A stretch of DNA of 41,851 nt from an uncultured SAR86 cluster bacterium (lineage in GTDB: Bacteria > Pseudomonadota > Gammaproteobacteria > Magnimaribacterales > Magnimaribacteraceae): positions 1 to 41,851 of the forward strand of contig CABXQE010000009.1 in the NCBI GenBank assembly GCA_902514295.1, written 5' to 3'. The notes under the pieces were generated by a model that ran no database searches, was not told where the DNA came from, and saw only the letters and a list, made by a program, of their open reading frames with translations. This document shows positions 20,290 through 25,305 of the stretch, piece by piece; the first letter of the stretch is position 1; each line of letters starts with the position of its first letter. The position numbers and the translations under genes were made by a program.

Positions 20290-20628
20290 TTAATGTTCCT
20301 CCGAAACCATATTAATAGTATATTTTGGTAGTTCTATCTCTAACTCTTCACTTTCTACTACAACTTGACAACTAAGCCTAGATTCTGACTCTAAACCCCA
20401 TGCCTTATCGAGCATGTCTTCCTCTTCTTCACTTGCATAATCTAGTGAATTGAAACCTTTTCTAACAATCACATGGCAGGTTGTACAAGCGCAAGATAAT
20501 TCACAAGCGTGTTCTATCTTTACATCATTTTCTAAAAGAACCTCAGCTAAGGTTTGACCTGGGTTCGCTTCTAAAACTGCTCCATCCGGACAAAGCTCCT
20601 TATGAGGCTTTAGTTTGATTACAGTCAT
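20290..20628 (-). CDS. fdx: Isc-type [2Fe-2S] ferredoxin
   Basis: A 112-residue adrenodoxin-type ferredoxin. The cluster ligands C42, C48, C51 (CELSCACTTC) and C87 follow the CX5CX2C...C pattern, within HACELSCACTTCHVIV. It supplies electrons to the IscS/IscU assembly step. It follows iscA directly; the hscB and hscA genes that usually separate the two are absent. Confidence 0.97.
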   Translation of the reverse strand: MTVIKLKPHKELCPDGAVLEANPGQTLAEVLLENDVKIEHACELSCACTTCHVIVRKGFNSLDYASEEEEDMLDKAWGLESESRLSCQVVVESEELEIELPKYTINMVSEEH

Positions 20629-20639
20629 TTGGGGTAAGG

Positions 20640-21002
20640 CTATATGTCTACTTCGAAACTCTCACCGCAGCCACAAACTGCCTTTACATTAGGGTTTAAG
20701 AATTTTAGCCCTTGATTAGCTCCATCTACTGAGAAATCGATCTTCGTTCCTTTAAGAAACTTAAAAGAGTCTTTATCTATATATACTGAAACATCTTCAA
20801 ATGTAAAAATGAAGTCATCAGGACCTCTCTCGTTAACATAATCCAGTTCATAGGTATAACCAGAGCAGCCCGAAGCTTCAAGCACAGAAAATCTTATTCC
20901 TAAAGAGTCTTTATTACTAAGACTTTTAGACAAATGTATTACAGCTGGGTTAGAAAGCGTAAAGCTATTAGGGTCAAAGGATACTGCAGAAGAATTACTC
21001 AT
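20640..21002 (-). CDS. iscA: A-type Fe-S carrier protein IscA-like
   Basis: A 120-residue A-type carrier, slightly longer than E. coli IscA (107) through an N-terminal extension. The three cluster-binding cysteines are C46 (SGCSGYTYEL) and C110/C112 (CGCGESF). It accepts clusters from IscU and passes them to apoproteins, mainly [4Fe-4S] targets. The position after iscU supports IscA over ErpA or SufA, although sequence alone does not fully separate them. Confidence 0.93.
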   Translation of the reverse strand: MSNSSAVSFDPNSFTLSNPAVIHLSKSLSNKDSLGIRFSVLEASGCSGYTYELDYVNERGPDDFIFTFEDVSVYIDKDSFKFLKGTKIDFSVDGANQGLKFLNPNVKAVCGCGESFEVDI

Positions 21003-21006
21003 TATT

Positions 21007-21411
21007 TTATAACTTGGATTCGTAATCCTCTATCGCTTTATGAATACTATCTTCAGCTAGAACTGAGCAATGAATCTTGATAGGCGGTAAATCTAAAGCT
21101 TTAGCAATATCTTTATTTTTAATTTCTCTAGCTTCCTCAAGGGTCTTGCCTATAAGCATATCTACAAGTTCACTAGAGGAGGCAATTGCTGAGCCACATC
21201 CATAAGTTTTAAACTTAACATCGCTTATGACGTGATTGTTATTCATAGGTTCGCATTTTATTTGTAACCTCATTACATCACCACACGCAGGTGCGCCTAC
21301 CATGCCTGTACCAATATCAGAATCAGAAGGGTCCCACCTTCCAACACTATTTTTTTCAGGCTCATTTAAGGTGTTTTCAAATTTATCAATTACTTTTTTA
21401 CTATACGCCAT
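21007..21411 (-). CDS. iscU: Fe-S cluster scaffold IscU
   Basis: A 134-residue scaffold on which [2Fe-2S] clusters are built. The ligands C43 (APACGDV, with D45), C72 (TYGCGSA) and C115 (KIHCSVLAEDSI) are all present. LPPIK at 108-112 is the HscA chaperone-recognition motif (LPPVK in E. coli), kept although hscA is not in this operon. It has an insertion of about six residues near position 15-20 relative to E. coli. A GAGGG ribosome site precedes the ATG. Confidence 0.97.
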   Translation of the reverse strand: MAYSKKVIDKFENTLNEPEKNSVGRWDPSDSDIGTGMVGAPACGDVMRLQIKCEPMNNNHVISDVKFKTYGCGSAIASSSELVDMLIGKTLEEAREIKNKDIAKALDLPPIKIHCSVLAEDSIHKAIEDYESKL

Positions 21412-21432: not shown

Positions 21433-22647
21433 CTATGTTGCCATCCATTCTACTGAATCTAAATCCACGCCATCCTTATACATGTCCCATAAAGGAGAAA
21501 GTTTCCTTAATTTCTCAACAGAATCCCTAACTAACTTGATGGTATATTTTACTTCTTCTTCATTTGTGAAACGACCAATTCCAAACCTTATAGAGCTATG
21601 AGCTAACTCATCTTTTAGGCCCAAAGCTCTCAAAACATAAGAAGGCTCTAAACTAGCAGAGGTGCAAGCTGATCCTGAAGAGACCGCTATATCCTTTAAT
21701 GCCATTATTAAAGATTCTCCTTCAACATAGTTGAAACTCACATTTAAAAAACCGGCCGCTCTTAACTCTTCGTCTCCATTTAAATAAACTTCTTCCATGT
21801 CTTTTAAGCCATCCCATAACCTGTCTCTTAAAGATTGAATCCTTTGTTTATCAGACTCCATATCAGTTTTAGCAATTCTAAAAGCTTCGCCCATTCCAAC
21901 TATCTGGTGAGTAGCCAAAGTTCCAGACCTCATGCCTCTTTCATGCCCTCCTCCATGTATTTGGGCTTTCAACCTAACTCTAGGTTTTCTACCTGCATAA
22001 AGCGCCCCTATTCCTTTAGGGCCATAAGTTTTGTGGGCTGAAAAAGACATTAAGTCCACATTTAAAGAAGTTAGATCTATGGGAAGTTTTCCGGTACTTT
22101 GAGCAGCATCCACATGAAAAATAATACCCTTTTCTCTAGTTATATTTCCAATTGATTCTATATCGCAGATAACTCCTATTTCATTATTTAGGTGCATTAA
22201 AGAAACTAAAATAGTTTCACCTGTTATAGCATTTGAAACCATATTAGGGGTTATTATGCCTTTATTGTTCGGGTCTAAATAAGTTACTTCGAAGCCTTCA
22301 GTTTCTAGCTGCCTACAGCTATCCAATACTGCCTTATGCTCTATTTTAGAAGTAATGATGTGATTACCTTTAGACTTATTAAATCTTGCAGAACCTTTTA
22401 TAGCAAGATTATCAGATTCTGTAGCTCCTGAAGTCCAAACAATTTCTCTTGGATCACAATTAACTAAATCAGCTACATATTGTCTTGCTTGTTCCGTAGC
22501 CTCTTCAGCTTTCCACCCAAAAGCATGAGATCTAGATGCTGGATTACCAAAGTTCCCTTCCATAGATAAACAGTCTTTCATCTTTTCTACTACTCTTGGA
22601 TCTGCTGGAGTAGTTGAAGCGTAATCTAAGTAAATTGGTAATTTCAT
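21433..22647 (-). CDS. iscS: Cysteine desulfurase IscS
   Basis: A 404-residue PLP enzyme, identical in length to E. coli IscS. K206 in [12 protein letters not shown] binds PLP, and C328 in [13 protein letters not shown] carries the persulfide. The C-terminus [18 protein letters not shown] is the IscU-contact tail. It converts cysteine to alanine and delivers sulfur to IscU and to TusA-type carriers (a tusA lies at 2917-3159). Confidence 0.98.
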
Positions 22648-22653
22648 ATTCGT

Positions 22654-23103
22654 TTAACCAGTAGCTATTAAAAAATTATCTTTTTCTTTTGGATTTTCTC
22701 TTCTTGAATTCAAAACATCTTTAAGCGATTTTTCCATTAAAAAACTATTTATACTTTCATTTAATTCAGTCCACAAGTTATGTGCCACACATATAGAACC
22801 TGCATTACAGGTTCCTTCTCCTGAGCACTGTGTCGCATCCATTCTTCTTTCAACAGCAGTTATAATTTCTCCTATCATAATATCTTCGCTAGGCCTGGAC
22901 AGTTTAAAACCGCCCTTGGGTCCTCTAGAAGCTGTTAAAATATCAGCCTTTCTTAAGTGATTAAAAATCTGCTCAAGGTAGGAAGGTGGTATAGACTGCC
23001 TTTTAGCTACATCAGCTATTTTTAAAAATGAAGTATCTTTTTCATTTATAGCAAGGTCTAAGGCAGCAGTAACTGCGTATTTTCCTTTAGTAGTTAGATT
23101 CAT
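22654..23103 (-). CDS. iscR: Fe-S-sensing transcription regulator IscR
   Basis: A 149-residue Rrf2-family regulator. An N-terminal winged helix (MNLTTKGKYAVTAALDLA) is followed by the [2Fe-2S] ligands C93, C99, C105 and H108 in the IscR spacing (ATQCSGEGTCNAGSICVAHNLW). In E. coli holo-IscR represses the isc operon through type 1 sites and apo-IscR acts at type 2 sites. A type 1-like site overlaps the predicted promoter of this gene (23118-23142), so the same autorepression is expected. The ATG lies only 7 bases from the -10, suggesting a leaderless message. Confidence 0.97.
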   Translation of the reverse strand: MNLTTKGKYAVTAALDLAINEKDTSFLKIADVAKRQSIPPSYLEQIFNHLRKADILTASRGPKGGFKLSRPSEDIMIGEIITAVERRMDATQCSGEGTCNAGSICVAHNLWTELNESINSFLMEKSLKDVLNSRRENPKEKDNFLIATG

Positions 23104-23110
23104 TAAGTAA

Positions 23111-23138
23111 ATTATATATTCCTGACTAAATTTGTCAA
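23111..23138 (-). promoter_or_regulatory. Consensus sigma70 promoter of iscR
   Basis: On the minus strand TTGACA (23133-23138) and TATAAT (23111-23116) are both perfect consensus hexamers with a 16-base spacer. Only 7 bases (23104-23110) separate the -10 from the iscR ATG, so transcription should start at or within a base or two of the start codon. Confidence 0.85.
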
Positions 23139-23142
23139 GAAT
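23118..23142 (-). promoter_or_regulatory. IscR type 1 binding site
   Basis: A 25-base near-palindrome with arms ATTCCTGAC and GTCAAGAAT (one mismatch) around TAAATTT. Compared by eye with the E. coli type 1 consensus (as I recall it), 22 of 25 positions agree, including the GACT and GTC cores. It covers the spacer and -35 of the iscR promoter, the position for autorepression by holo-IscR. Confidence 0.8.
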
Positions 23143-23166: not shown

Positions 23167-23180
23167 AGGTACATGTACCT
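23167..23180. promoter_or_regulatory. 14-bp perfect palindrome, candidate operator
   Basis: AGGTACATGTACCT is its own reverse complement. It stands in the iscR/kor divergent spacer, 64 bases upstream of the iscR ATG and 113 bases before the kor-operon ATG. Its half-site GTACC recurs downstream at 23251, 23282 and 23313. The binding protein is unknown. Confidence 0.5.
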
Positions 23181-23218: not shown

Positions 23219-23250
23219 CTTAATAATACTAGCAAATAAGGTTTTTTTAT

Positions 23251-23317
23251 GTACCATATACAAATTGGGGATATGGATATAGTACCAAAATTATGAGCAA
23301 TATGGACACTAGGTACC
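23251..23317 (+). repeat. GTACC motifs at 31-bp spacing before the kor operon
   Basis: GTACC occurs at 23251-23255, 23282-23286 and 23313-23317, exactly 31 bases apart, close to three helical turns. The first two are non-coding; the third lies 20 bases inside the first gene. Another copy is in the palindrome at 23167-23180. Confidence 0.4.
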
Positions 23318-25305
23318 TTTTTAAAAGGTACAACACTTGGTGGGTTAAGTTAGCTGTACCTGAAGCTTTAAGAGAACAATTAGGTTACGACCTTAGAAGA
23401 TCTTTAAAAACTCATGACTTGAAAACTGCCCAAGACTTTAGATGGGAAGTTGTAGATCAGCTAAGGAAAAAGATAGAGAGAGCGAAAGGTCTAGAAGAAG
23501 ACCTAGGTATTATTCCTGAAGTTGAAGAATATGTACCTCCTACAGATACATCAGACCCCCAGTATTATCACAAAGTAGTTGATTGCCAACATGCGTGCCC
23601 TGCCCATACTCCTGTACCTGAATATATTAGACAAATAGCCCAAGGGAACTATAACGAAGCATACATGCTCAATTGGGAATCAAATGTCTTTCCTGGAATT
23701 TTAGGTAGAACTTGTGATCGTCCTTGTGAACCCGCTTGTAGAAGGACAAGAACTCATGAAAAAGCTGTAGCTATCTGTAGACTAAAAAGAGTTACCTATG
23801 ACTATAAAGACGATATAGCAAACCTTATACCTAAACCCGAAACAAGTAATGAGAAAAAAATTGCACTTATTGGAGGGGGGCCAGCATCTTTAACCGTAGC
23901 AAGAGATTTAGTAATGATGGGATATGAATGCACTCTCTTTGAAAGAGATGGAAAGGCTGGAGGCTTGATGAGAACAAATATCCCGTCTTTTAGGTTACCT
24001 GAAGAAGTATTAGATGAAGAAGTAAACCAAGTTTTAAATTTAGGTATTAAAACGGTATTTAACTCTGAAATTACCAGTATGACAAAGCTTTTAGAAGAAG
24101 ACTTCGATGCTATTTTTGTTGGAACAGGTGCACCAAAAGGAAGAGATATAAAAATTGAGGGAAGAGAAGAAGCGGAAAAGAATATTCACATCGGCATAGA
24201 TTGGCTTACAAGTATTGCGTTTGAACATACAAAATCAGTTGGGAAAAAAGTGATTGTATTAGGTGGAGGTAACACTGCTATGGATTGCTGCAGAACATCT
24301 ATAAGACTTGGTGCTGAAGAGGTAAAGGTTACTGTTAGAAGCCCTTTTGACCAGATGAAGGCTTCTGAATGGGAAATTGAAGATGCCATGGGTGAAGGTA
24401 TACCCATACACGACAATCATGTTCCAAAGAAATTTATTATTAGAGATGAGAAGCTGGCAGGAATGGAGTTTGAAAAAGTAGAAGCTGTATTTGACGAAAA
24501 TGGAAAAAGGTCTCTGGTTCCAACTGGAGAAGACCCTATTATCTTTGAATGCGATGATGTGTTAGTTGCTATAGGTCAAGATAATGCATTTGAATGGATA
24601 GAAAGAGATTGTGGGATAGAGTTTGGTGAATGGGATATGCCGATAGTTGATAAAGTTTCATTTCAATCAACGAATCCAAAAGTTTTCTTTGGAGGTGATG
24701 CCGCATGGGGACCAGAAAATATTATATGGGCTGCAGCGCATGGGCATCAGGCAGCTATTTCTATAGACAAATTCTGTAAAAATGAAGACTTGTATGAAAG
24801 ACCAGAGCCATCTACCACTCTGGTAAGTCAAAAAATGGGGGTCCATGAATGGTCTTATGATAATAACATCTCTCAGGCAACAAGATTTTTGGTTCCTCAT
24901 GCTGACCAAAAAGACTCTTTAAAAGACCTTAAGATGGAAGTTGAACTAGGTTTTGATGAAAAAATGGCGTTAGAGGAAGCTCAAAGGTGTTTAAATTGCG
25001 ATGTGCAAACCGTCTTTGCTGAAGATTTATGTATTGAGTGTGATGCTTGTGTTGATATATGCCCTACTGACTGCATTAACTTCATTGGAAACGACTCTGA
25101 AGAGAGCCTACGAAATAATCTTAGAATACCTGCTATAAATTTAAATCAAGAAATATTAGTCTCAGAAGAGTTAAAACAAACTTCTAGAGTTATGGTTAAA
25201 GACGAAGATGTTTGCCTCCATTGTGGTCTTTGTGCCGAGAGATGTCCTACAGGCGCATGGGATATGCAAAATTTTCTTTATGAAGAAGCAAAGGTTTACT
25301 CATGA
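23293..25305 (+). CDS. Fusion: recombinase-type DUF6538-like N-domain, GltD/NfnB-like FAD-NAD(P)H module and two [4Fe-4S] ferredoxin motifs
   Basis: A 670-residue multidomain protein. Residues 6-65 (YLFKRYNTWWVKLAVPEALREQLG, then RRSLKTHDLKTAQDFRWEVVDQL) read like the N-terminal DUF6538 module of tyrosine recombinases; no recombinase catalytic domain follows. Residues 90-175 are the GltD-type N-terminal Fe-S region (C98, C102, C141, C145, C149). GGGPAS at 194-199 binds FAD and GGGNTA at 324-329 binds NAD(P)H. Near the C-terminus are two ferredoxin motifs, C580/C583/C586/C590 and C641/C644/C647/C651. It overlaps korA by 4 bases, so it probably links NAD(P)H to ferredoxin-level electrons for KorAB. 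No Shine-Dalgarno is seen; ATG 23302 is a possible second start. Confidence 0.85.
   Translation: MSNMDTRYLFKRYNTWWVKLAVPEALREQLGYDLRRSLKTHDLKTAQDFRWEVVDQLRKKIERAKGLEEDLGIIPEVEEYVPPTDTSDPQYYHKVVDCQHACPAHTPVPEYIRQIAQGNYNEAYMLNWESNVFPGILGRTCDRPCEPACRRTRTHEKAVAICRLKRVTYDYKDDIANLIPKPETSNEKKIALIGGGPASLTVARDLVMMGYECTLFERDGKAGGLMRTNIPSFRLPEEVLDEEVNQVLNLGIKTVFNSEITSMTKLLEEDFDAIFVGTGAPKGRDIKIEGREEAEKNIHIGIDWLTSIAFEHTKSVGKKVIVLGGGNTAMDCCRTSIRLGAEEVKVTVRSPFDQMKASEWEIEDAMGEGIPIHDNHVPKKFIIRDEKLAGMEFEKVEAVFDENGKRSLVPTGEDPIIFECDDVLVAIGQDNAFEWIERDCGIEFGEWDMPIVDKVSFQSTNPKVFFGGDAAWGPENIIWAAAHGHQAAISIDKFCKNEDLYERPEPSTTLVSQKMGVHEWSYDNNISQATRFLVPHADQKDSLKDLKMEVELGFDEKMALEEAQRCLNCDVQTVFAEDLCIECDACVDICPTDCINFIGNDSEESLRNNLRIPAINLNQEILVSEELKQTSRVMVKDEDVCLHCGLCAERCPTGAWDMQNFLYEEAKVYS

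Follow-up and report, generated by a model that had tools for sequence, protein, structure and literature searches.

The isc locus of this uncultured SAR86 cluster bacterium raises the question of whether a regulator gene whose promoter lies almost on its start codon is read from an mRNA without a 5' leader, and whether that promoter is still controlled by the gene's own product. We analyzed the window, that is, the whole stretch of 41,851 nucleotides, from a genome of 1.23 Mb in 58 contigs (79% completeness), and compared it with relatives in the SAR86 order, whose families are labelled f1 (that of the window), f2, f3 and f4. Those close relatives that bear a name belong to the SAR86 cluster or to other uncultured marine Gammaproteobacteria. 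On the minus strand, TTGACA, a 16-nt spacer, TATAAT and TTACTTA run directly into the iscR ATG (23103-23101; Table 1). No other sigma-70 match of 12/12 occurs in the window, while 0.08 are expected per simulated window of equal dinucleotide content. The assignment of the start codon is secure, since the N-terminus of the protein (MNLTTKGKYAV) aligns with that of E. coli IscR (MRLTSKGRYAV) from residue 1, and the start has the same position in relatives. Purines (A23104 and A23103) follow the -10 box at 7 and 8 nt, a normal distance for initiation, and a 5' UTR of 0-1 nt is therefore predicted from the position of the promoter, where <5 nt is the criterion for a leaderless mRNA. No Shine-Dalgarno sequence was found upstream of the iscR ATG, the preceding bases being AATATATAATTTACTTA.

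Table 1. Features of the isc locus and of the iscR promoter region, in window coordinates.
Feature	Position	Strand	Basis
fdx-like [2Fe-2S] ferredoxin gene	20290..20628	-	ORF, position, sequence read by eye
iscA-like gene	20640..21002	-	ORF, position, sequence read by eye
iscU	21007..21411	-	ORF and homology across SAR86
iscS	21433..22647	-	ORF; 6 nt after iscR
iscR, 149 aa, Rrf2 family	22654..23103	-	Pfam Rrf2 (E 1.6e-34) and alignment
Predicted transcription start, at the ATG or one base before	23103..23104	-	Inferred from -10 distance and purines
-10 box TATAAT	23111..23116	-	
Type 1 IscR operator (predicted), ATTCTTGACAAATTTAGTCAGGAAT, 22/25	23118..23142	-	Consensus match and conservation in f1 and f3
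-35 box TTGACA	23133..23138	-	Within the IscR operator

The near-palindrome overlying this promoter matches the type 1 IscR consensus ATASYYGACTRWWWYAGTCRRSTAT (25 bp, as printed in PMC3899308) at 22 of 25 positions and spans the entire -35 box together with 15 of the 16 spacer bases. It is the one match in the window, against 0.01 expected, and the only site in the whole genome with three or fewer mismatches; in each of three other SAR86 genomes a single type 1 match was likewise found at this threshold. A 25-bp consensus thus lies over the isc promoter beyond chance expectation. The first-pass annotation had described TTGACA-16-TATAAT 7 bases from the iscR ATG, with a type 1 site of 22/25 over the -35 box and spacer, and both descriptions were borne out, the former with an ATG that homology supports.

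Comparison of this spacer among related genomes, which the same annotation had proposed as a check, demonstrated that both the short gap and the operator are kept in f1 and f3. In f1, a type 1 site of 20-22/25 covers the -35 box in all 26 upstream regions read, and the -10 box lies 6-10 nt ahead of the iscR start codon in 24 of them, the exceptions being L004 (31 nt) and L025 (26 nt). Operator and -10 box are conserved there amid variable surrounding sequence. Similarly, sites of 22-25/25, eight of them perfect, cover the -35 box in 51/51 upstream regions read in f3, where the -10-to-start gap is 6-7 nt in 45 loci and the start codon is often GTG; the six remaining loci all come from genus g13 and have gaps of 40-44 nt. 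The leaderless layout is accordingly predicted to extend over two SAR86 families. The f1 genome bin G017 contains two similar iscR-iscU loci (L006 and L027) on different contigs and is perhaps a mixed bin.

The product of the window's iscR, the first gene of iscRSUA, has an Rrf2 domain and, by alignment, keeps Glu43 and the ligands Cys92, Cys98, Cys104 and His107 (E. coli numbers), residues that are conserved throughout f1 and f3 bar one alignment gap. In the interval from the iscA-like to the fdx-like gene (20290-21002), hscBA is absent. Seven SAR86 genomes (including G014, G015, G127, G135, G040 and G190) had no protein above the HscA cut-off and encode only one DnaK-like protein each, and the dedicated Isc chaperone seems to have been lost.

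We consider it highly probable that the sigma-70 promoter produces a leaderless iscR-iscSUA-fdx mRNA that is autorepressed by IscR bound over the -35 box and spacer. Transcription would start at the iscR start codon or one base before it, and the 5'-terminal AUG (GUG in many relatives) would be translated without a Shine-Dalgarno sequence. The type 1 operator would be occupied by [2Fe-2S]-IscR, excluding RNA polymerase, while under scarcity of clusters IscR without its cluster would leave the operator and the isc operon would be induced. We infer the exact start site, the binding of IscR, the co-transcription of the operon and the leaderless translation, the last from the position of the promoter. 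Leaderlessness is not strictly required, as three SAR86 lineages (g13, L004 and L025) have a leader. Conservation of the cluster ligands and of Glu43 makes autorepression the likely function in SAR86, in line with the anatomy of the promoter and with the tested systems of E. coli and P. aeruginosa. The earlier proposal that autorepression has been retained as in E. coli thus gains support at the sequence level, with the operator placed over the -35 box in 26 f1 and 51 f3 loci.

The near-palindrome might instead reflect merely a strong promoter in AT-rich DNA, without any IscR operator. TTGAC is common to the -35 box and the type 1 consensus, which inflates the operator score, and the site carries 3 mismatches; however, only 0.01 matches are expected by chance, f1 also conserves the operator half (TC.GGAA) that lies beyond the -35 box, the full 25/25 is reached eight times in the sister family f3, and the ligands of IscR are intact, so that we regard this explanation as very improbable. 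A different possibility concerns the transcript rather than the operator, namely that iscR is expressed mainly from a leadered mRNA, derived from an upstream promoter in f1 and from purC read-through in f3, with the promoter at the start codon playing a minor part. A promoter-like site of 9/12 is indeed present at 23223-23196, and purC of f3, which shares the strand of iscR and whose end falls within the operator, could by read-through give a leadered iscR mRNA. Sites of 9/12 are, however, no commoner than in shuffled sequences, while two families have conserved both the 12/12 promoter and its spacing from the start codon, no Shine-Dalgarno sequence is available to serve a leadered mRNA, and read-through from the window's neighbor is excluded by its divergent orientation. 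A mainly leadered expression of iscR is thus unlikely.

Within the preferred reading of a leaderless, autorepressed iscR, selection may have acted on leaderless translation itself, making start codon, transcription start and operator a locked unit, in which case the near-5' AUG of E. coli would be a related device and no coincidence. If this were true, IscR synthesis would depend on cluster status and, in addition, on leaderless (70S-type) initiation, but we think such selection unlikely.

A clear type 1 site whose -35 position reads TTGA is present in 57 of the 80 other gammaproteobacterial loci used as outgroup, and in all 57 the distance from operator to start is 31-122 nt, as compared with 13-17 nt in leaderless SAR86. 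Since a leader is kept in all 57 loci as well as in P. aeruginosa (29 nt) and E. coli (~67 nt), the short distance is a derived state that arose within SAR86, and the loss of the iscR 5' leader that the first-pass annotation had postulated is supported at the sequence level. In the IscR tree, the leadered g13, L004 and L025 are nested in leaderless groups, which suggests that these three lineages regained a leader. At least five changes of leader state are required by this tree, in which many nodes are weakly supported, and its weak resolution leaves room for one loss of the leader in f1 and f3 as well as for two. The leader of g13 (L183, L189 and L243-L246) opens with a hairpin, for example CCCAATAAC-acaa-GTTATTGGG, with a folding energy of -15 kcal/mol and a z of -5.7 in L244 and weaker values in the others. 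SAR86 was also screened for a general shift to leaderless genes, an idea that was rejected, as 442 kb of the window's genome yielded only a small excess: with crude ORF calls, 14 boxes resembling the -10 element were found in the three positions 6-8 nt before starts versus ~2 per position elsewhere. An f3 genome gave a weaker excess, and Shine-Dalgarno motifs peaked 5-8 nt before starts in this screen, these results likewise being based on crude ORF calls.

Lambda cI and tetR are regulator genes read from a 5'-terminal start codon. In Cupriavidus, arsR and ohrR are leaderless and leaderless mRNAs are enriched for transcription genes (PMC7563307). The predicted SAR86 iscR mRNA would share the 5'-terminal start codon with these regulators; unlike them, it encodes a chromosomal Fe-S sensor, and two families of a single order have its layout conserved. 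A further parallel is provided by E. coli iscRSUA, in which a type 1 site also covers the -35 box and spacer, the promoter-proximal site again matching at 22/25. There, an AUG 2 nt from the 5' end of the iscR mRNA opens an 18-codon uORF, whose expression in lacZ fusions was double that of the leaderless cI control and whose AUG binds 70S ribosomes (PMC4965119). In contrast to SAR86, this uORF ends 8 nt before iscR, which has a leader of ~67 nt and a Shine-Dalgarno sequence of its own, and iscR and iscS are separated by 111 nt rather than by the 6 nt of the window. The start codon of SAR86 iscR occupies roughly the place of a working leaderless start in E. coli, a likeness from which we claim no descent. 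ATG was not enriched at the expected offset in the leaders of the 57 outgroup loci, and derivation of the SAR86 start from an E. coli-type uORF is therefore not supported. In P. aeruginosa, the placement of type 1 sites on the RNA polymerase site and autorepression by [2Fe-2S]-IscR resemble what is predicted for SAR86, whereas a 29-nt leader (its transcription start mapped by primer extension), a ribosome-binding site and two operator sites do not (PMC3899308). Leaderless SAR86 iscR would thus be a compact variant of the known IscR feedback circuit, of interest chiefly for its breadth: in much of an ocean order that is abundant and for the most part uncultured, a textbook feedback promoter would have lost its untranslated leader. 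Our literature search, of incomplete coverage, found no paper linking SAR86 to leaderless mRNA, and the sharp prediction made here can be tested in marine metatranscriptomes.

The fate of iscR differs among the families of the order. IscU is present in all four, while IscR matches were absent from the f2 genomes and limited in f4 to a single genome (G184), and the isc locus of f2 and f4 is without iscR. In those f4 genomes that were read, iscS comes directly after purC, and in f2 iscS neighbors a DUF6538-like segment or is joined to it. The sole f4 match precedes a sufB-like gene, has Ser in place of Cys98 and is preceded by a leader. The order therefore holds a series from leaderless autoregulated iscR through an apparently regained leader to an isc locus without the regulator, which constitutes a natural series for translation start and Fe-S control in streamlined gammaproteobacteria. 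Among the f2 loci (L235-L239), the DUF6538-like segment of L237 and L238 shares one open frame with iscS.

The gene upstream of iscR in f3 is purC, as judged from its C-terminal sequence, and its stop codon falls within the operator in 51/51 loci, e.g. AAA CTT GAC TAA (K-L-D-stop), such that in the leaderless f3 loci a coding end, the operator, the promoter and the start codon are packed into ~40 bp. Three divergent oxidoreductase genes form a block that separates purC from iscR in most of f1; L018 is without this block and has purC upstream of iscR. The leader was most likely lost as the purC-iscR junction became compact. In the window, the spacer from iscR to the divergent oxidoreductase gene contains a perfect palindrome, GGTACATGTACC (23168-23179), which occurs once in the genome even at one mismatch, and a second conserved block, TATGGTACA (23249-23255). 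Both are kept in most f1 genomes with the divergent gene and absent in L018, and they likely form the operator of a regulator of the divergent genes. The palindrome was rejected as a second IscR site, because it misfits the type 1 consensus and tracks the divergent gene. In genus g7 of f1 (L008, L009, L011, L012, L013 and L015), TAATGATAATCATTATCATTA, which resembles a near-perfect Fur box, is found ~96 nt before iscR, just upstream of the palindrome. At 23293-25305 of the window, a ferredoxin-type oxidoreductase bears a fused DUF6538 segment at its N-terminus, a segment known elsewhere from recombinase-like proteins.
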